The notes under the pieces are model-generated. The model searched no databases. It was not told the origin of the DNA and saw nothing but the letters and a program-made list of their open reading frames with translations. Shown piece after piece: positions 52,402 to 63,231 of a stretch of 64,000 nucleotides of DNA. The stretch covers positions 620,001 to 684,000 of the forward strand of contig NZ_VTFU01000001.1 of the NCBI RefSeq assembly GCF_009192735.1, written 5' to 3'. The stretch comes from Arthrobacter gandavensis (GTDB taxonomy: Bacteria; Actinomycetota; Actinomycetes; Actinomycetales; Micrococcaceae). Positions within the stretch are counted from its first letter, which is position 1, and each line of letters starts with the position of its first letter. The position numbers were made by a program, and so were the translations under genes.

Positions 52402-53112
52402 ATGAATCATGCAGGCGGAAACCACAGGGAGCACAGCTTCGACAAGGCTTACTGGGAGCGGCACTGGGAAGAACTCCGCGAAGCCGGTTCGGCGGCCGAA
52501 CCCAGTCCCGGAAACCCCTACCTTGAACGCGAAACTGCCGGCCTTGCGCCGGGCACGGCGCTGGACGCAGGATGCGGTGAGGGAATCGAAGCACAGTGGC
52601 TGGCGGCACGGGGCTGGGACGTTGTTGGCACTGACATTTCCGCGGCTGCCCTGGCCGAGGCCTCCGCGCGTACCGCGGCCCGTCCCCTCCAAGGCTCAGT
52701 GACCTGGGTCGAGGCAGACCTCACCTCCTGGGCGCCGGGCCGGCAGTTCGACCTGGTGATGACAAATTATGCGCACCCGGCGATGCCTCATCTTGAGTTT
52801 TACCGGCGGCTGGCGGGATGGGTGGCTCCGGGCGGTGCCCTGCTCATCGTCGGGCATCTGCACGGCGGCTCCCCTGCCGGCGTGCAGGACGGCGGGCACG
52901 ACGGCGCACACCAGCAGCACAGTGAACACCGGCAGCACAGCGCGCACCCGCCCGTTGAGGCGACCGTCGACCTTGCCGCAATCGTGGCCGGGTTCGACAC
53001 CCCCGAGTGGGAAATCGTCACCGCGGAAGAGCAGACCCGTACCCTGCACGCGCCGGACGCCGGGCATGACAAGGTGCTGCACGACGTCGTCGTGAAAGCT
53101 GTCCGCCGCTAG
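52402..53112 (+). CDS. class I SAM-dependent methyltransferase
   Basis: 236 residues. SAM-binding LDAGCGEGIEAQWLA (motif I), acidic VVGTDIS after strand 2, and DLVMTNYAHP at motif IV. A His/Gln-rich insert (HQQHSEHRQHSAH) interrupts the C-terminal part. ATG 52402 fits the conserved FDKAYWERHWE start; an in-frame ATG 57 nt upstream is possible. Its stop shares a CTAG with the convergent flavin monooxygenase gene. Substrate unknown; resembles thiopurine/tellurite-type methyltransferases in layout. Confidence 0.8.
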   Translation: MNHAGGNHREHSFDKAYWERHWEELREAGSAAEPSPGNPYLERETAGLAPGTALDAGCGEGIEAQWLAARGWDVVGTDISAAALAEASARTAARPLQGSVTWVEADLTSWAPGRQFDLVMTNYAHPAMPHLEFYRRLAGWVAPGGALLIVGHLHGGSPAGVQDGGHDGAHQQHSEHRQHSAHPPVEATVDLAAIVAGFDTPEWEIVTAEEQTRTLHAPDAGHDKVLHDVVVKAVRR

Positions 53113-54569
53113 GCGGTGGGAACCCTGGCCGCCGCTGACCGAGCCGAGGCAGCCTCGCCGCAGTTCAGGTTCGTGCTGTCCAGGTTCGCGCTCTCCAGGT
53201 TCCGGCCGCCGCGGTACCGCGTGCCGTAGTGGTCCTGCGGCAGCCCCGTGTGGCCGGCGCCGAAGATCCGCTCGCGCAGCGTCTCCCCCGCCTCATATCC
53301 TTCCCGCAGCCGGCCGCGGCGGCGCAGCTCCGGAACCACCAGCTCGCCGAAATCTCGAGCGGTCCCGAAGGAGTGGTACTGGCGCAGGTTGATGCCGTCA
53401 ATGCCGTCTTCATCCAGCCAGCGCTCAATCTCGTCCGCCACCACGCCGGGAGTGCCGGCCACAAAATACCGGCCTTCCCGTCCGCTGCGCACGTTGGCAA
53501 GCAACTCGCCGGCGGTGGTGCCCGGCTCCAGGGTTCGGGCCAGCGGCAGGTCCTGTTTTCCTTCGCGCCGCAGGATGTCAGCAACCGGAGTTTCCGGCGG
53601 ATAGGCCGCCGGGTCAATCGCGTAGCCGCCGTGGGCCAGGATGCCGTCCACACTGGAATGCTCCCGGTACGCCTGCAGCTTGGCCGCCACCTCATCATCG
53701 GTGCGGCCCACCACCACGCCGGCCTGCACAATGTACCGGATCGCGCCGGGAGCACGGCCCCGGGCTGCCGCCGCGGCGTCCATGGCGGCGGCATTGGCGC
53801 GGAAGTCGGCGGCCGTTCGCCCGCCGGTGAACACGACTTCGGCATGCTTGCCGGCAAAGGAAATCCCGGCCGGTGAGCCGGTGGCCTGGAACAGGACGGG
53901 CGTGCGCTGCAGCGAAGGTGCGGTCAGGTGCGGGCCCGCCACGGAAAAGTTCTCCCCGCGGTGGTTGATGTAGCGGACCCGGTCCGGATCCGAGTAGACC
54001 CCGGTGCTGCGGTCGGCCAGGACCGCACCGTCATCCCAGGAGCCTTCCCAGAGCTTGTACAGCACGTCCAGGTACTCGTCGGCGATCTCATAGCGCCGGT
54101 CATGCGGAATCTCCTCCGCCAGTCCGAAGTTGCGGGCGGCGTTGGGCAGGTACGAGGTGACGATGTTCCAGCCCACGCGGCCGCGGGTGAGGTGATCCAG
54201 CGTGCTCATGCGCCGGGCGAAGGCGAACGGCGGCTCGTAGCTGGTGGAAAAGGTGGCCCCGAATCCTATGTGCCGGGTGAGCGCGGCCATCGCGGGAATG
54301 ACCGTGAGCGGATCGAGGTTCGGGATTTGCAGCCCCTCCCGCAGCGCCGTGGCCGGCCCGCCGCGGAAGATGTCGTAGGCGCCGACGACGTCGGCCAGGA
54401 AGATCGCGTCGAAGCCCGCTTCCTCGCTTACCTGGGCCAGTTCGGTCCAGTAGTCGATGTCCGCAGTGCGGTGCCGGTTGTTATCTTCGAGCACCCACAA
54501 TCCGTGGGTGATGTGGCTGACGCAGGCCATCTCGAACAGGTTGACGATCAGTTTTTTCGGTTCAGGCAC
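53109..54569 (-). CDS. LLM-class flavin monooxygenase, NtaA/SnaA/DszA-DmoA type
   Basis: 486 residues. FMNH2-dependent TIM-barrel oxygenase: LIVNLFEMACVSHITHGLW, AGFDAIFLADVVG, LTRGRVGWNIVTSYLPNAAR, PVLFQATGSPAG and DGINLRQYHSFGTARDFGEL. The branch includes dibenzothiophene sulfone, dimethyl sulfide and nitrilotriacetate monooxygenases. GTG 54569 with AAGGGG 6 nt upstream is preferred to an in-frame ATG at 54584 with no ribosome-binding site. It overlaps the preceding gene by 8 nt. Last gene of the riboswitch-controlled operon; likely cleaves a C-S bond (inference). Confidence 0.9.
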   Translation of the reverse strand: MPEPKKLIVNLFEMACVSHITHGLWVLEDNNRHRTADIDYWTELAQVSEEAGFDAIFLADVVGAYDIFRGGPATALREGLQIPNLDPLTVIPAMAALTRHIGFGATFSTSYEPPFAFARRMSTLDHLTRGRVGWNIVTSYLPNAARNFGLAEEIPHDRRYEIADEYLDVLYKLWEGSWDDGAVLADRSTGVYSDPDRVRYINHRGENFSVAGPHLTAPSLQRTPVLFQATGSPAGISFAGKHAEVVFTGGRTAADFRANAAAMDAAAAARGRAPGAIRYIVQAGVVVGRTDDEVAAKLQAYREHSSVDGILAHGGYAIDPAAYPPETPVADILRREGKQDLPLARTLEPGTTAGELLANVRSGREGRYFVAGTPGVVADEIERWLDEDGIDGINLRQYHSFGTARDFGELVVPELRRRGRLREGYEAGETLRERIFGAGHTGLPQDHYGTRYRGGRNLESANLDSTNLNCGEAASARSAAARVPTA

Positions 54570-55800
54570 GGAGGGCCCCTTCATCCGTTGAAGCGGTGGC
54601 GGTTCGGGCAGCTGCCGTGGCCTGCCCTGAAACGCCGGAGGCGGAACGCCAGGCGGGCAGCCGGCCGTTGAGGTGGTAGTCCCCCAGCTGCCGTGCCCGC
54701 TCGGCTGCCGGATTATGCGAGGCGATGGTGCGGACATTGCGCCAATGGCGGTCCAGGCCCAGCCGGGTTCCCACGGCGGAGGCTCCGCCAACCTCGAAGA
54801 GCTCGGTAACTGCCCCCAGCACGAGCGGCAGCAGTGTCTGCTGGGTCTTGAAAACACCGAGCTGGGCGGAAAGGAACAGCTCTCCGGCGTCCTCTCCGCG
54901 CAGCCGGGCTGACAGGGCGGCATCCAGTTCCGCCGCATTGGAGAGCACTGCTGCGCGGGCGGTGTGGGCTGCGGCGGAGAGCCGGCCCACGGTGGCCTGC
55001 ACCAGCTCACTCTCCCGCGGCGGGTTCTGCCCGGCCTGGGCAAACGTCCGCCGGCGCGGCCGGACGAAGTCGACGGTGTCGGCCAGCGCCGCCTCCGCAA
55101 TGCCGGCCACGGTGGCGAGCAGGCACAGCTGGTAAATGCCGGTGATGTACTGGAACCTTTCGCCGTCTGGGCTAAAGGTCTGGATATCGGCCGGTGCCAC
55201 CGGCACGTCGGTGAACGTGGTGCTGCCGCTGCCGGTGAGCTGCTGGCCGAAGCCGTCCCAGTCGTCAGCTGTCATCACCCCCGGATCCCGGGCGTCGACG
55301 GTGGCGCCCACGTAGTCCCCGCCGTCGAGCGCGGAAACATGGATCCAATCCGCGTAGATGCTGCCGGTGGTGTAGTACTTGCATCCGTTGAGCCGGGCGC
55401 CGTCCTCCGTGCGGGTGAGCGTGGTGGCGATGTCGGTGGTGTCCCCCCGCTCGGACTGAGCGTTCCCGACCAGGGCTCCGCTCCGCAGCCGGTCCCTCCA
55501 GCGTGCCTGGGCGTCGGAGTCCCCGTTGAAGAGCAAAGTTTCCACGAAGGCAATGTGGCCGCGGAAGAGATGGGCAATATTGGAGTCGGCCGCGGCGAGG
55601 TCGACGACGTTGCCGAAGAGCTCGGTCAGGGGAATCCGCGGTTCAGCCGTCAGGCGGCGTGAGCCGAAGCCGATGCGCTGCAGCTCCTCGACGGTGTCGA
55701 AGGGCAGCGAATGGTCGCGTTCGCGGTTGACCGCTTCGGCGCGGGCGGCGGCCCGGATACGCGCGAAGGCAGGGGCAAAGGAGGTGGTGGGGAGGGTCAT
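54562..55800 (-). CDS. acyl-CoA-dehydrogenase-fold flavoprotein, SfnB/DszC type
   Basis: 412 residues. The fold of flavin monooxygenases and sulfur-acquisition oxidoreductases: DHSLPFDTVEELQRIGFG, AAADSNIAHLFRGHIAFVE, GNAQSERGDT, LNGCKYYTTGSIYADWIHVS and the closing ASHNPAAERARQLGDYHLNG, which ends as in SfnB/DszC. Such enzymes oxidise sulfides, sulfoxides or sulfones with reduced flavin. ATGA overlap with the ATPase gene upstream and 8-nt overlap with the LLM gene downstream show a coupled operon. Confidence 0.85.
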   Translation of the reverse strand: MTLPTTSFAPAFARIRAAARAEAVNRERDHSLPFDTVEELQRIGFGSRRLTAEPRIPLTELFGNVVDLAAADSNIAHLFRGHIAFVETLLFNGDSDAQARWRDRLRSGALVGNAQSERGDTTDIATTLTRTEDGARLNGCKYYTTGSIYADWIHVSALDGGDYVGATVDARDPGVMTADDWDGFGQQLTGSGSTTFTDVPVAPADIQTFSPDGERFQYITGIYQLCLLATVAGIAEAALADTVDFVRPRRRTFAQAGQNPPRESELVQATVGRLSAAAHTARAAVLSNAAELDAALSARLRGEDAGELFLSAQLGVFKTQQTLLPLVLGAVTELFEVGGASAVGTRLGLDRHWRNVRTIASHNPAAERARQLGDYHLNGRLPAWRSASGVSGQATAAARTATASTDEGALRA

Positions 55801-57476
55801 GCGGAGGTCCTTTCAGCAAGGGCTGTTACGGCCCGGCCAGCCGGGTGCCGCAGCGAAACGGCCCGGCCGTGCTGCCCGGGGATCGAGTCGATGAGCTGGC
55901 GTGTGTAGGGATTCGTGCTTTCGTCGAAGATGTGGTCCACGGAGCCTGCATCGACCAGACGGCCGGTGCGCAGCACCGAGATTTCGTCGGCAATCTGCCG
56001 CACCAGGCTCAAGTCGTGGGAGATGAAGAGGTAGGTGAGCCCGGCTTCTTCCCTGAGGTGGAACAGCAGGTCGATAATGCGGGCCTGGACAGTGACATCC
56101 AGGGCCGACGTGGGTTCGTCCAGGACCAGGATTTCCGGGGTGAGGACCAGTGCGCGCGCTATGGCCACCCGCTGGCGCTGGCCGCCGGAAATCTCCCGCG
56201 GCCGGCGCTCCAGCAGCGCCTGCGGCAGCCCCACCCGGTCCAGCACCTCAGCCACCCGTGCGGCACGTTCCCGGCGGCTGGCGGTGCCGTCCGTACGGTG
56301 CAGGTGCAGCGGCTCCTCGATGCTTTGCCCGATGCTGAACTTGGGGTCCAGTGCCGCGAGCGGGTTCTGATAGACCAGCTGCAGCTGCCGGGCGTGGGGG
56401 TTCACCGTTCCGGGAGCCGGATCCAGTGTCCGGCCGCCCACCGTCACGGATCCGCCGCTGAAGCTTTCCAACCCCGCGAGGACGCGCGCCACCGTGGTTT
56501 TCCCCGAGCCGGACTCCCCCACCAGGGCGTGGGTGGAACCGGCACGGACCGTGAAGCTCACGCCGTCCACGGCGGCCGGCACAACGTCACCGGCACCGTA
56601 CCGCTTGACCAACCCGCGGACGACGACGGCGGAGTCCCGCACCGATGCCGCTGCGGCGGTGAGTTCGGACCGGTATTTGTGCGGACTGAGCGCCGGGGCG
56701 TCGGCGAACAGCGTCTGCGTGTAGGGATCCTTCGGGCGCTCCAAAATCTCGCCGGCGGGACCGGATTCCACCACCTTTCCCTCATTCAGGACTGCCAGTG
56801 TGTCGCTGCGGTCTGCAGCCAGTGCCAGATCGTGCGTGATGAAGAGGACTGCCAGGCCCAGGTCGGCCTGCAGCTCGGCGAGCAGGTCAAGAATTGTCTT
56901 CTGCACCGTGACGTCCAGCGCGGAAGTCGGCTCATCAGCAATCAGCAGCTGCGGCCGGCCGGCAATCGCGATGGCTATGAGCACCCGCTGCAGCTGGCCG
57001 CCGGACAACTCATGCGGATAGGACCGGACCCGTTGTTCCGGATGGTGGATTCCCACCTTGGCGAGCAGGGCGGCGGCCTCCGCTGCGATGCCGGCGGCCG
57101 GCGTGCCCGTGTGGAGCCGCAGCGCCTGCCCCAGCTGGGCACCCACGGTTTGCAGGGGATCCAGGGAGCTGAGCGGATCCTGTGGAATGTAGCCCACGCC
57201 GGTGCCGCGCAGCCGCCGCCATTGCCGGCGGTTGAAGTGCGTAACGTCTTCCCCGCCCATATGCACGGTGCCGGCGGTGATCCGGCCGCTGGCTGGCAGG
57301 AGCCCTCCGGCGGCCAGCGCGAGCGTGCTTTTTCCGGAGCCGGACTGGCCCACGAGGGACAGCGTCTGGCCTCGCTCCAGGCGCAGATCCGCCCCGTGGA
57401 CGACGTTGGCGGCCAAGGAACCCTGCCCGTAGGCAACGCTCAGTCCGCGCAGTTCAAGAGCCGGTGATGTGCTCAT
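55797..57476 (-). CDS. ABC transporter ATP-binding protein, two fused ATPase domains
   Basis: 559 residues with two nucleotide-binding domains of the oligopeptide type (DppD-DppF fusion). Domain 1: GQSGSGKSTLALAAGG, signature LSGGQLQRVLIAIAIA and LLIADEPTSALDVTVQ. Domain 2: GESGSGKTTVARVLAG, ISGGQRQRVAIARALV and LVLDEPTSALDVTVQ. Energises the importer formed with the two permeases and lipoprotein; coupled by ATGA overlaps on both sides. Confidence 0.95.
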   Translation of the reverse strand: MSTSPALELRGLSVAYGQGSLAANVVHGADLRLERGQTLSLVGQSGSGKSTLALAAGGLLPASGRITAGTVHMGGEDVTHFNRRQWRRLRGTGVGYIPQDPLSSLDPLQTVGAQLGQALRLHTGTPAAGIAAEAAALLAKVGIHHPEQRVRSYPHELSGGQLQRVLIAIAIAGRPQLLIADEPTSALDVTVQKTILDLLAELQADLGLAVLFITHDLALAADRSDTLAVLNEGKVVESGPAGEILERPKDPYTQTLFADAPALSPHKYRSELTAAAASVRDSAVVVRGLVKRYGAGDVVPAAVDGVSFTVRAGSTHALVGESGSGKTTVARVLAGLESFSGGSVTVGGRTLDPAPGTVNPHARQLQLVYQNPLAALDPKFSIGQSIEEPLHLHRTDGTASRRERAARVAEVLDRVGLPQALLERRPREISGGQRQRVAIARALVLTPEILVLDEPTSALDVTVQARIIDLLFHLREEAGLTYLFISHDLSLVRQIADEISVLRTGRLVDAGSVDHIFDESTNPYTRQLIDSIPGQHGRAVSLRHPAGRAVTALAERTSA

Positions 57477-58345
57477 TCGGATACCTCACGTGTGTCGTGG
57501 AAGAGGGCGCTGACGCGGCTGATGGACAGTACCGTCAGGACAATGACCAGGCCGGGCAGCAGCGTCAGCCAGGGGGAAGAAACAATGTATTCGCGGCCTT
57601 CCGAGACCAGCAGCCCCCATTCGGGATGCGGCGGCGGGGTCCCGTAGCCCAGGAAGCTGAGCGCGGCGATCCACAGGATGGCCGACCCGAACTGCAGGGC
57701 CGTCATGGAGAGCACGGCAGTGTAGGAGTTTGGCAGCACATGCCGGAACAGCACAGTGGCGGGCCTGGCACCAATGTGATGGGCAGCTTCCACGAAGGTC
57801 AGGTTCCGCACCGTCAGTACCTCTGAGCGCATCAGGCGGGTAAAGGTGGCCACTGAGGCAATGCCGACGGCGATCGCGGCGTTCAGGGTGCCAAACCCCA
57901 GCGCCACCACCACCATCATGGAAAGCAGCAATCCGGGAATGGACAGCAGGACATCGACAATGCGGCTGACCACCGTGTCCACCCATGACCCGAAGTATGC
58001 CGCGACGAGTCCCAGCACCGATCCGGCTCCCAGCCCAATGGCCACGGCAATGAGGGATGCGCCTATGGTTTGGGCGGCTCCGTGAATGACCCGGGCCAGC
58101 AGGTCACGGCCGAGGTAGTCGGTGCCAAAGGGATGCGCCGGTGTGGGGGCCAGCAGGGTGTTCCCCGGGGATGCCTCCAGCGGATCGAACGGCGTCAGCA
58201 GCTGCGGGACCCCTATGGCTGCCAGCAGGAGCAGCAGGAAGCCCAGCGCCAACCAGTCTCCCGGCGTCGTCGTCCGGGCTTTTTCGATGATCCGTTTCTT
58301 GCGGGTTGACGGCGGGGCAGTCTGGTTTATCAGTGGTGAGCTCAT
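57473..58345 (-). CDS. ABC transporter permease (DppC type)
   Basis: 290 residues, six membrane helices. Family marks: HPFGTDYLGRDLLARVIHGA, the EAA loop around TFVEAAHHIGARPATVLFRH and the C-terminal PHPEWGLLVSEGREYI. Partner of the DppB-type permease; ATGA overlap with both neighbours. Confidence 0.94.
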   Translation of the reverse strand: MSSPLINQTAPPSTRKKRIIEKARTTTPGDWLALGFLLLLLAAIGVPQLLTPFDPLEASPGNTLLAPTPAHPFGTDYLGRDLLARVIHGAAQTIGASLIAVAIGLGAGSVLGLVAAYFGSWVDTVVSRIVDVLLSIPGLLLSMMVVVALGFGTLNAAIAVGIASVATFTRLMRSEVLTVRNLTFVEAAHHIGARPATVLFRHVLPNSYTAVLSMTALQFGSAILWIAALSFLGYGTPPPHPEWGLLVSEGREYIVSSPWLTLLPGLVIVLTVLSISRVSALFHDTREVSE

Positions 58346-59376
58346 CGGGCCAGAGCCTCCGATACGGTGGACGGCCGTTCGATGGCCGGCGCAGCGGCCG
58401 GCGGATAACCGGTGGTTGGTTGTCGCTGGTTCCGCCGGCGGGCCATCCGCGGATCAACGGCGGGATACAGCAGGTCGGTGAGGAGATTGATGGTGGTGAA
58501 GATAATGGCCACCAGCATGACCACAGCCTGCACCACCGGTCCGTCCTGCGCCCGTACTGCCTGCTCCGTCACGAAGCCCAGTCCGGACCGGTTGAACACA
58601 GCCTCCGCAATGACTGAACCGGCCAGCAGCTCGCCGACGGTCAGCCCGAACAGGGTAAGCGCGGGAATCGAGGCGTTGCGCAGCACATGGGAACTGAAGA
58701 TCCGGCCCTCGGACACCCCCTTGGCGCGCAGGACAGTGACGAAAGGATCGCCGTACGCTTTGCGCAGCCCGCGGATGAGCACCTGGGTGATTGGTGCGCT
58801 GACACCGAAGGCCAGCGTCACCGCGGGCAGGAGCAGCGACTTGGCACCCTCATCCCGGATGGAGGAAAACCAACCGAGCTGGTAGGCGAAAACCTGCAGC
58901 AGCAGCAGCCCGGCCAGAAAACTCGGGGTGGACAGGGACAGCACCGGGAAGGCGCCGGCCAGCCGGCGGACCGCTCCCCACGGCGCCAGCACGGCGGCGG
59001 CGGCAATCGCCAGGGACAGGGCCAGGGCCAGGACCAGGGCGGCTGCCGCCAGTGCCACCGTCTCGCCCAGTCCCTGGGTGATCAGGTCCGCCACCGGCCG
59101 GCCGGTGGCCAGCGAGAAGCCCAGGTCGCCCTGGAACAGGCGGGTCACCGAAATCCAGAACTGTTCCAGCACATTCCGGTCCAAGTTGTAGTAGGCGGTA
59201 ATGGCGGCCGCCTGCTCTTCCGGGATGGGATTCAGCGGGTTGTTGATGCGGCTGCCGATGGGGTCGCCGGGCAGGGCGAAGAGGATGAAGTACACAAACA
59301 CGTAGGTCAACGCGACCACCAGAAGCGACTGCCCGATGCGGGCGGCGATGAAACCGGGGCCGGACGCGTTCCTCAT
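58342..59376 (-). CDS. ABC transporter permease (DppB type)
   Basis: 344 residues, six membrane helices. N-terminal RIGQSLLVVALTYVFVYFIL and FALPGDPIGSRIN, the cytoplasmic loop VLRAKGVSEGRIFSSHVLRN, and TVGELLAGSVIAEAVFNRSG. Second gene of the operon, coupled to the lipoprotein gene by ATGA. Confidence 0.94.
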   Translation of the reverse strand: MRNASGPGFIAARIGQSLLVVALTYVFVYFILFALPGDPIGSRINNPLNPIPEEQAAAITAYYNLDRNVLEQFWISVTRLFQGDLGFSLATGRPVADLITQGLGETVALAAAALVLALALSLAIAAAAVLAPWGAVRRLAGAFPVLSLSTPSFLAGLLLLQVFAYQLGWFSSIRDEGAKSLLLPAVTLAFGVSAPITQVLIRGLRKAYGDPFVTVLRAKGVSEGRIFSSHVLRNASIPALTLFGLTVGELLAGSVIAEAVFNRSGLGFVTEQAVRAQDGPVVQAVVMLVAIIFTTINLLTDLLYPAVDPRMARRRNQRQPTTGYPPAAAPAIERPSTVSEALAR

Positions 59377-61013
59377 TTGGTTTCCGTCCAGGTTTCGTAA
59401 AAGGACGGGCGGGCCTCCGCACCGAAGGACAGTCCGTGTAGGGTGGGCTGCAAAGCAAACACCTGGGAGTCATCGAGGATGGGGAGCGCGTAGGCGGAGT
59501 CGATGACGTGGTCCTGGATTTTGCCGATGATCCCGCTGCGGACATCGGCGTCGGTGGCTGTCAGCTGCTCGGCCAGCAGGGCGTCCAGTTCTGCATCGGG
59601 CTGCTGCAGGTTGAAGGCATTGAGGTACTCGCTGGAATAGTTGACGGTGAGCCGGATCGGATCCGCCTCCGGCCAGCCATTGCGCCGTGCGCCCACCGAT
59701 GGGTCGGCCAGCACCGTGGAGTAGTTGGCGTAGTCAGTTTCCTTGATTTCCAGGTTGACGCCCAGTTGCTTGAGCTGCCACTGGATCAGCTGGAACAGGG
59801 GCTTGGACGTGCTGTCGTACACGTCAACGTACGTGAGGATGTGCAGCTGCTCTCCGTTCCGGGTGCGGAACCCGTCCGCATCCCGTCCGGTCCAGCCGGC
59901 GTCGTCCAGCAGCTGGTTGGATTTGTCCGGGTCAAACGCCAGCTTCTCCGATTCATCCTTGTACCCCAGGGACCCGGGAGTGAGGATGCTGGTGGCTTTG
60001 TTCCAGTTCTCCGTATACAGGTCGGAAATGATCTGGTCCCGGTCGATTCCGTGCTGGAGCGCCTGGCGCACCCGCACGTCCTCCAGGAACGGCGCGGACT
60101 GCCGCAGATCCCAGACGTTGGAGTTGCCCACACCCTGAACACTGACCACTTCGAGTCCGGCCGCGGTCAGGGTCTTCTCCTCGCTCGGCTGGATGTAACG
60201 GATCAGGTCCGCCTCGCCGGCACGCAGCGAGCCAAGCCGCACGCTGTCTTCGGTCACCGGAATGATGGTGATGCGGTCCAGATATGCCTCGCCCTGGTTC
60301 TCCAGGTCGGGCGGGGCCCATGCATATCCGTCCCGCCGGGCCAGGACGATTTCCTCGCCGTACTTTTCGGATTCCACAGTGAAGGGACCGCTGCCGATGA
60401 TGCCGGTTAACTGGGACTGGGCTTCAATCGGTGCGTTGATCGTTTCATCAGCGACCAGGCTGGTCCGCCAGAATGACAGCACGTTAAGGAAGGGGGCGTG
60501 CGGGGCCGTGAGCTGCACCGTAACGGTCCGGGACGCGTCGTCGGCCGTTACCGCCGACACTTTGGGGAACCAGTTATTGGCCGGGATGCCCTTTTCGCTG
60601 TCCCCCGCGGCCTGCCAGTCCAGATTGCGCTTGACCGCCTGGGCGTCCAGGACCTGGCCGTTGCTGAAAGTAACACCATCCCGGATCACGAACGTGTAAG
60701 TGAGTCCGTCATCGCTGACGGTCCATTCCTCAGCGATCCACGGTTTCAGCTCCAGTGTTTCGGGGTCCCGGTAGATCAACCGGTCCGTGATGTTCTGGAT
60801 GTAGGCGCTGTCCTGCCAGGTGCCGCTGCTTTGGAGCTGTGTATTGGAGGACAGTTCGGCGTCGAGGTAAACCACCTCTCCGCCGCGCTTGTCAGTGGAT
60901 TCGGTGGCGTTGCCGGGCTGGCTGCAGCCGGAGGCGAGGACGGCCGTCAATACTGACAGGACCAGCAGGGGCAAAGCACGGGCGGAAGCCGGATGTTTCC
61001 GGTTGAGTTTCAT
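59373..61013 (-). CDS. ABC transporter substrate-binding lipoprotein (family 5 type)
   Basis: 546 residues. Signal sequence with lipobox LASGC (cysteine near residue 29), then a peptide/nickel-type binding domain: YIQNITDRLIYRDPETLELK, TFVIRDGVTFSNGQVLDAQ, AVKRNLDWQ and VRQALQHGIDRDQI. First gene of the operon behind the SAM riboswitch. ATG 61013 is chosen because the signal peptide begins there; the frame is open upstream through a tandem repeat. Substrate inferred to be a sulfur compound from operon context only. Confidence 0.92.
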   Translation of the reverse strand: MKLNRKHPASARALPLLVLSVLTAVLASGCSQPGNATESTDKRGGEVVYLDAELSSNTQLQSSGTWQDSAYIQNITDRLIYRDPETLELKPWIAEEWTVSDDGLTYTFVIRDGVTFSNGQVLDAQAVKRNLDWQAAGDSEKGIPANNWFPKVSAVTADDASRTVTVQLTAPHAPFLNVLSFWRTSLVADETINAPIEAQSQLTGIIGSGPFTVESEKYGEEIVLARRDGYAWAPPDLENQGEAYLDRITIIPVTEDSVRLGSLRAGEADLIRYIQPSEEKTLTAAGLEVVSVQGVGNSNVWDLRQSAPFLEDVRVRQALQHGIDRDQIISDLYTENWNKATSILTPGSLGYKDESEKLAFDPDKSNQLLDDAGWTGRDADGFRTRNGEQLHILTYVDVYDSTSKPLFQLIQWQLKQLGVNLEIKETDYANYSTVLADPSVGARRNGWPEADPIRLTVNYSSEYLNAFNLQQPDAELDALLAEQLTATDADVRSGIIGKIQDHVIDSAYALPILDDSQVFALQPTLHGLSFGAEARPSFYETWTETK

Positions 61014-61095
61014 GGCGCTGCTTTCTCGATGGAGGGGCCGGCAACAGAGTCCGGCGGGCAGGGAAGGGCGGCCCGTGGGCAGGGAAAAGCACGGG

Positions 61096-61140
61096 CAGGG
61101 AAAAGTGGCGCAGGGAAAAGTGGCGCAGGGAAAAGTGGCG
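61096..61140 (-). repeat. 15-bp tandem repeat, three copies, in the operon leader
   Basis: CAGGGAAAAGTGGCG is present three times without change. In the transcript (minus strand) it reads as a C-rich, G-poor tract with TTTTCCC blocks, with two further related units next to it. Confidence 0.92.
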
Positions 61141-61274
61141 CAGGGCGCGCGCTGCGGAAGGCGGCATGGCCGGGCATGCCGAAGCCGGGCAGGGCAAGCC
61201 AAATCGGGCCGGTTCAGAAACCTAGCTGGTGGAGCGGGGACATCGATTCATCGGGTGTGCCTCTGCGGGATCAT

Positions 61275-61302
61275 GGCGCCCCGGGGGCGCTGCCGGAGCA
61301 GC
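61275..61302 (-). promoter_or_regulatory. hairpins just downstream of the riboswitch
   Basis: Two adjoining GC-rich stems (GCTGC-tccg-GCAGC and GCGCC-CCCGG-GGCGC in the transcript) follow the aptamer by a few bases. No U-run follows. They may belong to the expression platform; the rest of the 625-bp region 61014-61638 holds the repeat, the riboswitch and the operon promoter, and no gene I can support. Confidence 0.45.
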
Positions 61303-61307
61303 GGAGA

Positions 61308-61424
61308 CGCCGTACTTGCCGGGCCGGGCAGGTGCCCGCCGGCCGAATCATCACCTGGAGCACCCCGCTACGGCGAGAGGGTTGCTGTCCAGCCGGCCAG
61401 GGCCGATGGCTGGAACTCTTGATT
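61308..61424 (-). promoter_or_regulatory. S-adenosylmethionine riboswitch, SAM-IV type
   Basis: In the minus-strand RNA: P1 AATCA/TGATT (61420-61424 with 61346-61350); P2 TCCAGCC/GGCTGGA; conserved core CAGCAACC; P3 ACCC/GGGT enclosing CGC/GCG; then TGCTCCAGGTGATGA, the SAM-I/IV core. Downstream come a GGGC/GCCC hairpin and GGCAAG. The loop segment CGCCGTA (61369-61375) can pair over 7 bp with TACGGCG (61308-61314), the pseudoknot that marks the SAM-IV class. It lies about 295 nt before the lipoprotein gene. High SAM should lower expression of the transporter and monooxygenase operon. Confidence 0.9.
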
Positions 61425-61575
61425 GCTGACTCCATGCTAGGGCAGGAGGGAAGATTCCGCGCAGAAGACGTCGTGCGGGGTAAGCCGCCGTCATATGACG
61501 CTTTTTCGGCCATATGACGGCACAGCCAGGTCACACTGCGTAAGGCAGCGGACGGCGTAAAACGGAGCCGGAACG

Positions 61576-61610
61576 CCGCCGGTCCGGGCGCACTGCAAAC
61601 GGACCGGCGG
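61576..61610 (-). terminator. terminator after the ABC-F gene
   Basis: Perfect 11-bp inverted repeat CCGCCGGTCCG / CGGACCGGCGG with a 13-nt loop, about 30 nt downstream of the ABC-F stop on the minus strand, with GTTTTA further on. A partial third copy of the arm (61623-61634) lies beside it. Confidence 0.7.
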
Positions 61611-61638
61611 TTGGATCAGGCAGCCGGACCGGCGGGTG

Positions 61639-63231
61639 TTACGCGACCCGCAGGTCGATCTCGCCCGGGGCGGCGCCGTCGGCACCGAACACCAGGTGCC
61701 GGTTAGCGATCTTGTCGGTGAAGAACCGGTCATGGCTGACCACCACCACGGCTCCGGGGAAATGCAGCAGCGCCCGTTCCATCACCTGCGTGCTGGAGAG
61801 GTCCAAGTGGTTCGTGGGCTCGTCGAGCAGCAGGACTGAAGCGCCGGACAGCAGGCACTGGGCCATGGCGACGCGCGCCTTCTGTCCGCCGGAGAGGTTG
61901 CCGATCTTCTGCTTCAGGTCCGCTTCGGAGAACTGGAACATCGTCAGGAATCGGTTGACCGACTTCTTGGTGGCGGTCAGGGCCAGGCTGTCCGGCATGG
62001 CGTTCACCGCGTGGGTGACGGTGTCGGCGTCGTCGAGCTCCGCGAGGACCTGGTTGTAGGAAACTATCCGGGCCCCGTTCGCCCAGGCGACCTTGCCGGC
62101 GTCGGCCTTTTCCTCTCCGGTCAAAACCCGCAGCAGCGTGGTCTTTCCACTTCCGTTGGACCCGAGCACCACCAGGCGGTCACCCCGCCGGATTTCAAAG
62201 CTCAGTCCGCTGAACAGGGTTTTCTCCCCGTAGGACTTTTCCAGGGATTCCACCCGGCACAGGTTGTCCTTCACATGCAGGCCGCCGTAGATCTCGGTGA
62301 TGATCTGGTCCACGGGGCGCGGGGCACGGGCCTTCTTGATCTTGGCCAGCTTCGTGCCCAGCGCGCCGCTGCCGGCCTTGGCGGCCTCACGGCGGTCCGA
62401 GATGCCCTCGGCCTCAAACGCCAGCAGTTCGGACTCATGCACAAACTGCGATTCCAGCGCCTTGAGCCTGAACTGCTTCTGGATCACATACTCGGCAAAG
62501 TTTCCGGAGTATTCATGCAGGTGGTAGTTCTCCACCTCGATGATGCGGGTGACTACGGCATCCAGGAACTTACGGTCGTGGGATACGACGACGGCGGCGC
62601 CGCGGAAGTCGCGGAACCAGCCTTCCAGCCACTCGACGCCGGCGACGTCGAGATAGTTGGTGGGTTCATCCAGGAGCAGCACGTCCGGCGCCTCAAGCAG
62701 GATTTTCGCCAGGGCCGCGCGGTTGCGCCAGCCGCCGGAGAGGGCGTCGATGGGGCAGGTGCGGTGGGCCTCACTGAAGCCCAGGGTGGTCAGCGCCGCG
62801 TCGATGCGGCGCGGATAGTCCCAGCCGTCCAGCCGGTCCATGGACTCGAACAGTTCGGCCTGGCGGCCGATCAGCTTATCCATGACTTTTGGCGCGGGGT
62901 CGGTTCCGAGGGTCTCGTCGATGGCGGCGAGCTCCGCTTCAACGGCCTTGATCTCCACAAACAGGGCATCCAGCACTTCAGTAATGGTGGACTCGCCGTT
63001 CAGCTCGGAGAACTGCGAGAAGTAACCGATTTTCAGTCCCTGGTCCACGGAGACTGTGCCGGAGTCGGGCTCAATCTGTTCCAGGATCAGCTTGAGCAGC
63101 GTGGACTTGCCTGAACCGTTCTTGCCGATGAGGCCAACCCGGTCCTTCGGCTCAAGGCGGAAGAAAGCCTCGCGCAGGATCTGGGTCTTGTCGAAGCCAA
63201 CGTTGACGTCCTGCAGCCGGATCAGGCTCAT
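61639..63231 (-). CDS. ABC-F family ATPase (ribosome-associated type)
   Basis: 530 residues with two ATPase domains and no membrane segments. Domain 1: GKNGSGKSTLLKLI, LSGGWRNRAALAKILL and LLLDEPTNYLD. Domain 2: GSNGSGKTTLLRVL, LSGGQKARVAMAQCLL and LLLDEPTNHLD. The charged linker between them (about residues 245-320) is the P-site tRNA interaction motif region. ABC-F proteins act on the ribosome as translation factors or antibiotic-resistance proteins. ATG 63231 chosen with AAAGGA upstream. No resistance context is visible. Confidence 0.93.
   Translation of the reverse strand: MSLIRLQDVNVGFDKTQILREAFFRLEPKDRVGLIGKNGSGKSTLLKLILEQIEPDSGTVSVDQGLKIGYFSQFSELNGESTITEVLDALFVEIKAVEAELAAIDETLGTDPAPKVMDKLIGRQAELFESMDRLDGWDYPRRIDAALTTLGFSEAHRTCPIDALSGGWRNRAALAKILLEAPDVLLLDEPTNYLDVAGVEWLEGWFRDFRGAAVVVSHDRKFLDAVVTRIIEVENYHLHEYSGNFAEYVIQKQFRLKALESQFVHESELLAFEAEGISDRREAAKAGSGALGTKLAKIKKARAPRPVDQIITEIYGGLHVKDNLCRVESLEKSYGEKTLFSGLSFEIRRGDRLVVLGSNGSGKTTLLRVLTGEEKADAGKVAWANGARIVSYNQVLAELDDADTVTHAVNAMPDSLALTATKKSVNRFLTMFQFSEADLKQKIGNLSGGQKARVAMAQCLLSGASVLLLDEPTNHLDLSSTQVMERALLHFPGAVVVVSHDRFFTDKIANRHLVFGADGAAPGEIDLRVA

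Follow-up and report, generated by a model that had tools for sequence, protein, structure and literature searches.

SAM-IV riboswitches (RF00634) contain two pseudoknots, PK-1 and PK-2, the latter formed between the P3 loop and the 3' end past P5 (PMC6890682). Riboswitches that control uORFs are known from Mycobacterium tuberculosis, where this has been described for both the Mbox and the B12 riboswitches (PMC12810186, PMC11260477). In the pe20 Mbox leader, the aptamer is followed by a conserved short uORF and a further stretch before the annotated gene, and Rho termination has been shown for the M. tuberculosis Mbox (PMC12810186). The metE and ppe2 leaders of the same species each combine a B12 riboswitch with a uORF (PMC11260477). 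For SAM-IV itself, the leader before the aminotransferase class V gene CRV15_21540 of Streptomyces clavuligerus gives rise to a premature transcription unit, with a drop into the gene that is among the most extreme, and the passages of the account dealing with this leader assign neither Rho nor a uORF to it (PMC8269248). A table of eight leader peptides includes none at the SAM-IV leader of Streptomyces lividans SLIV_26975 (PMC8079986). SAM-I riboswitches (RF00162), which by family have the same ligand, are found before importer operons homologous to the one described here; the transporter genes are related, but the aptamer belongs to another class and the gene start is ~93-104 nt away.

The SAM-IV aptamer analysed here lies on the minus strand of a 64-kb stretch of DNA, referred to as the window (Table 1). 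With a full model match and both pseudoknots it differs in nothing from the described aptamers (PMC6890682), and the locus departs from them in its long expression platform, which includes a conserved uORF. The layout resembles that of the pe20 Mbox leader, though with another aptamer and ligand and with Rho action and uORF translation that are putative here (PMC12810186). Whereas the ppe2 uORF follows a different aptamer and overlaps its gene, that in the window ends 208 nt before the gene (PMC11260477), and its presence is unlike the SAM-IV leaders of S. clavuligerus and S. lividans, for which the corresponding passages describe no uORF (PMC8269248, PMC8079986). It is the leader, not the aptamer, that is out of the ordinary. 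A search of the literature on SAM-IV with uORFs, leader peptides and Rho-dependent termination found no description of a SAM-sensing relay from riboswitch to uORF to Rho.

Table 1. Features of the locus, in the order in which they are met on the minus strand
Feature	Position in window	Strand	Basis
Operator-like perfect 11-nt inverted repeat GCCGTCATATG, 13-nt spacer, 63-97 nt upstream of aptamer	61487..61521	-	Repeat search
Candidate -10 element TAGCAT, ends 9 nt before aptamer	61434..61439	-	Read from sequence
SAM-IV riboswitch aptamer	61307..61424	-	RF00634, 93.7 bits (cut-off 38), model 1-116
PK-1, CCTGG (61401-61397) with CCAGG (61358-61354)	61354..61401	-	Read from sequence
PK-2 loop strand CGCCGTA, P3 loop (61375-61369)	61369..61375	-	Sequence and covariation
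PK-2 3' strand TACGGCG (61314-61308)	61308..61314	-	Sequence and covariation
Shine-Dalgarno-like AGAGG, 8 nt before uORF start	61260..61264	-	Same motif and spacing in 3/3 species with the window leader
Conserved uORF ATGAATCGATGTCCCCGCTCCACCAGCTAG (MNRCPRSTS*), 9 codons, starts at +55	61222..61251	-	Conservation of Shine-Dalgarno motif and uORF
C-rich, G-poor leader, 208 nt, C 45 %, G 24 %, Rho-loading-like	61014..61221	-	Composition
ABC importer substrate-binding protein	59373..61013	-	SBP_bac_5; nearest NCBIfam TIGR04028, below cut-off
ABC importer permease	58342..59376	-	BPD_transp_1
ABC importer permease	57473..58345	-	BPD_transp_1
ABC importer ATPase, two fused ATPase domains	55797..57476	-	ABC_tran, two stretches
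SfnB-like acyl-CoA-dehydrogenase-fold oxidoreductase	54562..55800	-	TIGR04022, 231 bits, below cut-off of 430.9; Acyl-CoA_dh_2 above cut-off
NtaA/DmoA-family FMN monooxygenase, start approximate	53109..54584	-	TIGR03860, 464.2 bits, above cut-off of 279.7

The aptamer and the operon behind it

A minus-strand SAM-IV riboswitch had been predicted at this position, and cmscan with clan competition, by which the best member of the SAM clan alone is retained, agreed in finding a full-length match. SAM-IV was the only Rfam family above its cut-off in the 64 kb, the sole survivor of the competition within its clan, and no other SAM class fits better at 61307-61424. The match has an E value of 1.3e-17 in an 801-base stretch and 1e-15 in the whole window, and the alignment marks zero broken pairs. 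The 7-bp pairing of the P3 loop with the 3' tail, which formed part of the original prediction, is PK-2, an established feature of the family, and its strands are complementary at 7/7 positions. Taken by itself, the window aptamer is a typical representative of the SAM-IV family.

It had also been proposed that this pairing reflects covariation rather than copied sequence. The sample comprised 85 aptamer loci (69 distinct sequences), 84 of which were parsed (all except L116), and pairs were scored in a fixed register over the first five positions, the misparsed L111 being scored as zero. The 29 distinct loop/tail combinations form 119 of 145 register pairs, a total that none of 5000 shuffles reached (mean 101.9, sd 3.3, maximum 114), though the rows are related and this is not a probability. 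Covariation is seen between aptamer groups, with CCGUA/UACGG in that of the window, CCGCG/CGCGG in the homocysteine-synthase group, CACG/CGUG in L119 and CUCGCG/CGCGAG in L118. At that level the proposal holds; close paralogs within the genus mostly have the PK-2 sequence in common, several of them with one central mismatch (tails TACAGCG, TACCGCG and TACTGCG). Pairing in the fixed register is poor in L006, L007, L068 and L069.

The sulfur-type operon expected behind the aptamer is there, and consists of six genes, for an ABC importer, an SfnB-like oxidoreductase and an NtaA/DmoA-type monooxygenase. At five junctions the start overlaps the stop of the gene before it (with an approximate start for the last gene). 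Judged by their profile matches, the six genes look built to take up an organosulfur compound and oxidize it by a flavin-dependent route.

SAM-IV was found in all 29 genomes of the genus, and the window genome (3.7 Mb, 12 contigs) has seven matches. The genes targeted include those for homocysteine synthase (L001), an ABC binding protein (L002), the window operon (L003), an NtaA/DmoA-type monooxygenase (L004) and a flavin reductase (L005), and the SAM-IV copies in this genome form a coherent sulfur-gene set. Two divergent SAM-IV-like RNAs, L006 (C7:508135-508258, 66 bits) and L007 (C5:655845-655981, 45 bits), have counterparts, by score band, in 27/29 and 29/29 genomes of the genus, and the ORFs behind them have no Pfam or NCBIfam match. 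A SAM-I-like match (L134, G000:C4:688015-688111), at 43.1 bits versus a cut-off of 44.4, lies ~6.6 kb away from the aptamer of the window; it ends 9 nt ahead of an ORF (L134 253-1491, minus strand), which we take to resemble a relative of the MetE-type methionine synthase.

In a family search, the binding protein was found at E <=1e-120 in 9 of 395 genomes, and SAM-IV lies upstream of its gene in three of these nine, all in the window's own genus. Outside the three species with the window leader, orthologous loci gave no Rfam SAM match (11 loci: L120-L125, L011 and L038-L041, the last four from Mycetocola and Microbacterium; just 418 nt upstream in the case of L125). Among nine scanned loci of the genus and family with importer homologs at 33-39 % identity, SAM-I is present at five (L013-L016 and L019) and absent at L012, L017, L018 and L020, and L021, with a homolog at 30 % identity, has SAM-IV. 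Two genomes, G004 and G007, contain both SAM-I before a distant importer homolog and SAM-IV before the window-type operon.

The leader between aptamer and operon

The aptamer is separated from the first ATG of the operon by 293 nt. Within the genus, a plausible gene start is found 15-89 nt past SAM-IV in 61 of 66 rows (duplicates included), and the four rows with longer leaders represent the window operon in three species, L006 having no start by the rule used. A view of long leaders as exceptional across the whole SAM-IV family was rejected, because at 7 of 19 loci outside the genus the gene is >100 nt from the aptamer; such leaders stand out inside the genus only.

Three other readings of this stretch found no support. 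An intrinsic terminator as the expression platform was looked for on the minus strand of 60900-61700, and none was found. A direct switch at the Shine-Dalgarno sequence was considered since alternative helices can be drawn, pairing the PK-2 strand GGCGUC with GGCGCC, and GGGGCGCC with the Shine-Dalgarno region. However, the GGCGUC/GGCGCC helix is invariant in three species, the single compensatory change in one hairpin was equalled by 148 of 500 shuffles, and in a folding test the accessibility of the Shine-Dalgarno sequence was nearly unchanged whether the PK-2 strand was free or held (0.43/0.41, 0.55/0.48 and 0.44/0.43). Finally, it was considered that the first protein might reach N-terminally into the leader; in three species the frame contains no stop, but a start at a common position was not seen.

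The uORF and its Shine-Dalgarno motif are found between aptamer and gene in 3/3 species, the only three that carry the window leader. In comparison with G004, the block comprising the two is identical at 52 of 58 columns and that from the aptamer to the uORF stop at 73 of 86, while the C-rich leader beyond (112 of 209) is at the level of the fourfold sites of the first gene (161 of 263). The uORF of G004 reads MNRCPRPTG* and both substitutions change the amino acid, so that the window uORF has no coding signature. Elsewhere in the genus, the pattern that recovers these three leaders gave a match with one mismatch in G003.

The C-minus-G excess of the 208-nt stretch is matched by 0.09 % of window stretches and by 0 of 614 that do not overlap, controls that are apparently mostly coding DNA, and a general leader bias may contribute to the excess. 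It recurs in the three species (0.21, 0.21 and 0.25) despite diverged sequence and uORF-to-gene stretches of 208, 226 and 154 nt. The C/G ratio over 78 nt is used as a rule for Rho sites, and the best ratio in the leader, 3.25, was reached by 4 of 1314 control segments. Tandem 15-nt repeats (4.7 copies) lie inside the C-rich leader at 61075-61145.

SAM-IV leaders with uORFs in other genera

Among the 19 SAM-IV loci from other genera, L101, L105 and L109, all from one genus (g33), have the uORF VSKRMR in common. In S. clavuligerus and S. lividans SAM-IV is followed by a gene for an aminotransferase class V or cysteine desulfurase, which suggests that g33 is Streptomyces; the two g33 genes tested, those behind L105 and L153, encode an aminotransferase class V, the gene type of CRV15_21540.

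SAM-IV is present in 78 of 81 g33 genomes. When the 77 leaders of the main type (~102 bits or more) were searched, 76, representing 74 distinct 70-nt stretches, contained the pattern [GA]TG NNN NNN CGA ATG NNN TAG, a six-codon uORF with GTG or ATG as start codon that encodes VSKRMR in 55; the other SAM-IV leaders of g33 lack it (0/15). The first two bases of codon 6, the last sense codon, are 96 % conserved and the third 59 %, a pattern that appears coding-like, and most flanking positions are conserved at 40-65 %. An RNA constraint on the region is also indicated, since GGC almost always follows directly after the stop. The uORF stop is 61-198 nt from the gene (gene starts by rule), and in this interval C exceeds G in 76/76 leaders with a median excess of 0.18.

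The sole exception (1/77), L214 in genome G588, is without the uORF, and an aminotransferase-like open frame, recognized by eye, begins with GTG at the usual uORF start position. The arrangement looks as if the start controlled by the riboswitch were that of the uORF, and L214 seems to be a natural fusion.

A locus from the window's order, L107, whose family is represented by one genome, has the uORF VNHHRMRR with the same CGA ATG. The window peptide, MNRCPRSTS, differs from that of g33. The window and g33 share a layout of SAM-IV, mini-uORF and C-rich stretch, but the uORFs differ in sequence.

Proposed control of the operon

SAM-IV is an OFF switch. We consider it probable that the riboswitch lowers expression of the operon at high SAM, most likely indirectly via the uORF, with the ligand and the sign of the effect taken from the family. 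Indirect control of the six genes is suggested because the 293-nt gap holds a conserved uORF. In the proposed scheme, the aptamer, near the 5' end of the transcript, would sense S-adenosylmethionine, and the start codon under its control would be that of the nine-codon uORF just past it. With SAM bound, the uORF would be translated less, leaving the C-rich leader open to Rho, which would halt transcription ahead of the first gene, and plentiful SAM would in this way reduce expression of the organosulfur import and oxidation genes; with SAM low, ribosomes on the uORF would favour read-through. A uORF of nine codons cannot cover 208 nt against Rho, and hence a pause or coupling must be assumed. 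Taken on their own, uORF translation, Rho action and their coupling appear to us about evenly balanced between right and wrong. At the remaining SAM-IV loci in the genus, a plausible gene start follows at a distance of 15-89 nt, so the relay would not be general for SAM-IV.

Of the competing explanations, the one that survives best, though we find it rather unlikely, is a conventional translational SAM-IV switch that acts on the first gene via mRNA folding or stability, the uORF being the relic of a gene start copied with the aptamer. Over 121 bases, the aptamer region of the window shares 92 % identity with a paralog at C4:983691, whose gene start is at +56, and copying of the aptamer within the genome is therefore likely; in paralogous leaders the gene start lies about as far away, and some of these leaders share the GCAGAGG motif. 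A relic would not be expected to show conservation with G004 well above that of fourfold sites, as the uORF block does, nor would a similarly placed uORF be expected to be kept in 76/77 leaders of g33.

It is also unlikely that the uORF serves chiefly to sense an amino acid or tRNA behind the riboswitch, with a ribosome pause at CGA-TGT (Cys) here and at CGA-ATG (Met) in g33 supplying a second sulfur signal. Cys-rich leader peptides without terminators, and with possible Rho sites, have been proposed before mycobacterial cys operons (PMC1262725). In the window uORF, the codons AAT, CGA and TGT are used, which make up 15 of 87 Asn, 8 of 228 Arg and 0 of 8 Cys codons in seven window genes, the first six codons are invariant in three species, and CGA ATG is found in 76/76 g33 uORFs (it was required by the search pattern, which only L214 failed). 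Against this, the uORFs offer only single Cys or internal Met codons, no terminator/antiterminator pair was found, and the codon invariance may instead reflect RNA contacts.

Upstream of the aptamer, identity with G004 (138 of 224) is approximately at the fourfold-site level. The TAGCAT candidate fits the TANNNT pattern for -10 elements; a consensus promoter scan found no promoter for the window leader. The operator-like repeat, which keeps 10/11 pairs in G007 and is degraded in G004, suggests that a protein regulator may also act on the operon. CGTCA/TGACG boxes, often ~20 nt apart, precede sulfur-type transcripts with SAM-IV, with SAM-I and with no aptamer (window 61487-61521, L001, L002, L005, L013-L016, L019 and L039-L041). 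There are 25 in 16 hand-chosen 140-nt promoters, some of them related, compared with a shuffle mean of 7.6 (0/500 reach 25), for a motif picked by eye after inspection, and four of the 16 (L004, L006, L007 and L038) have none. The boxes are probably the site of a shared protein regulator. A further perfect 11-nt inverted repeat, at 61576-61610 just after the upstream ABC-F gene, is perhaps the terminator hairpin of that gene. The operator-like repeat and the enriched boxes, which also precede the aptamer-less orthologs L039-L041, would accommodate an intact but uncoupled aptamer, with a promoter inside the long leader and protein control at the boxes, but this is very improbable as both the boxes and the -10-like TAGCAT are upstream of the aptamer, so that a transcript from there includes it, and the aptamer is identical to that of G004 at 113 of 118 positions.

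The Mg and B12 leaders of M. tuberculosis already provide examples of a riboswitch coupled to a uORF. Our wider proposal is that in several actinobacterial lineages SAM-IV acts on a conserved mini-uORF rather than on the sulfur gene itself, that translation of this uORF determines whether Rho terminates in a C-rich leader, and that the relay may also read Cys or Met supply; it seems to us to fall just short of an even prospect. The six-codon uORF is simple enough to be dissected with few leader fusions. If the proposal is true, a SAM-IV version kept across the sampled genus and in a second genus would represent a wider actinobacterial design and would explain how SAM-IV leaders that have no terminator can work.
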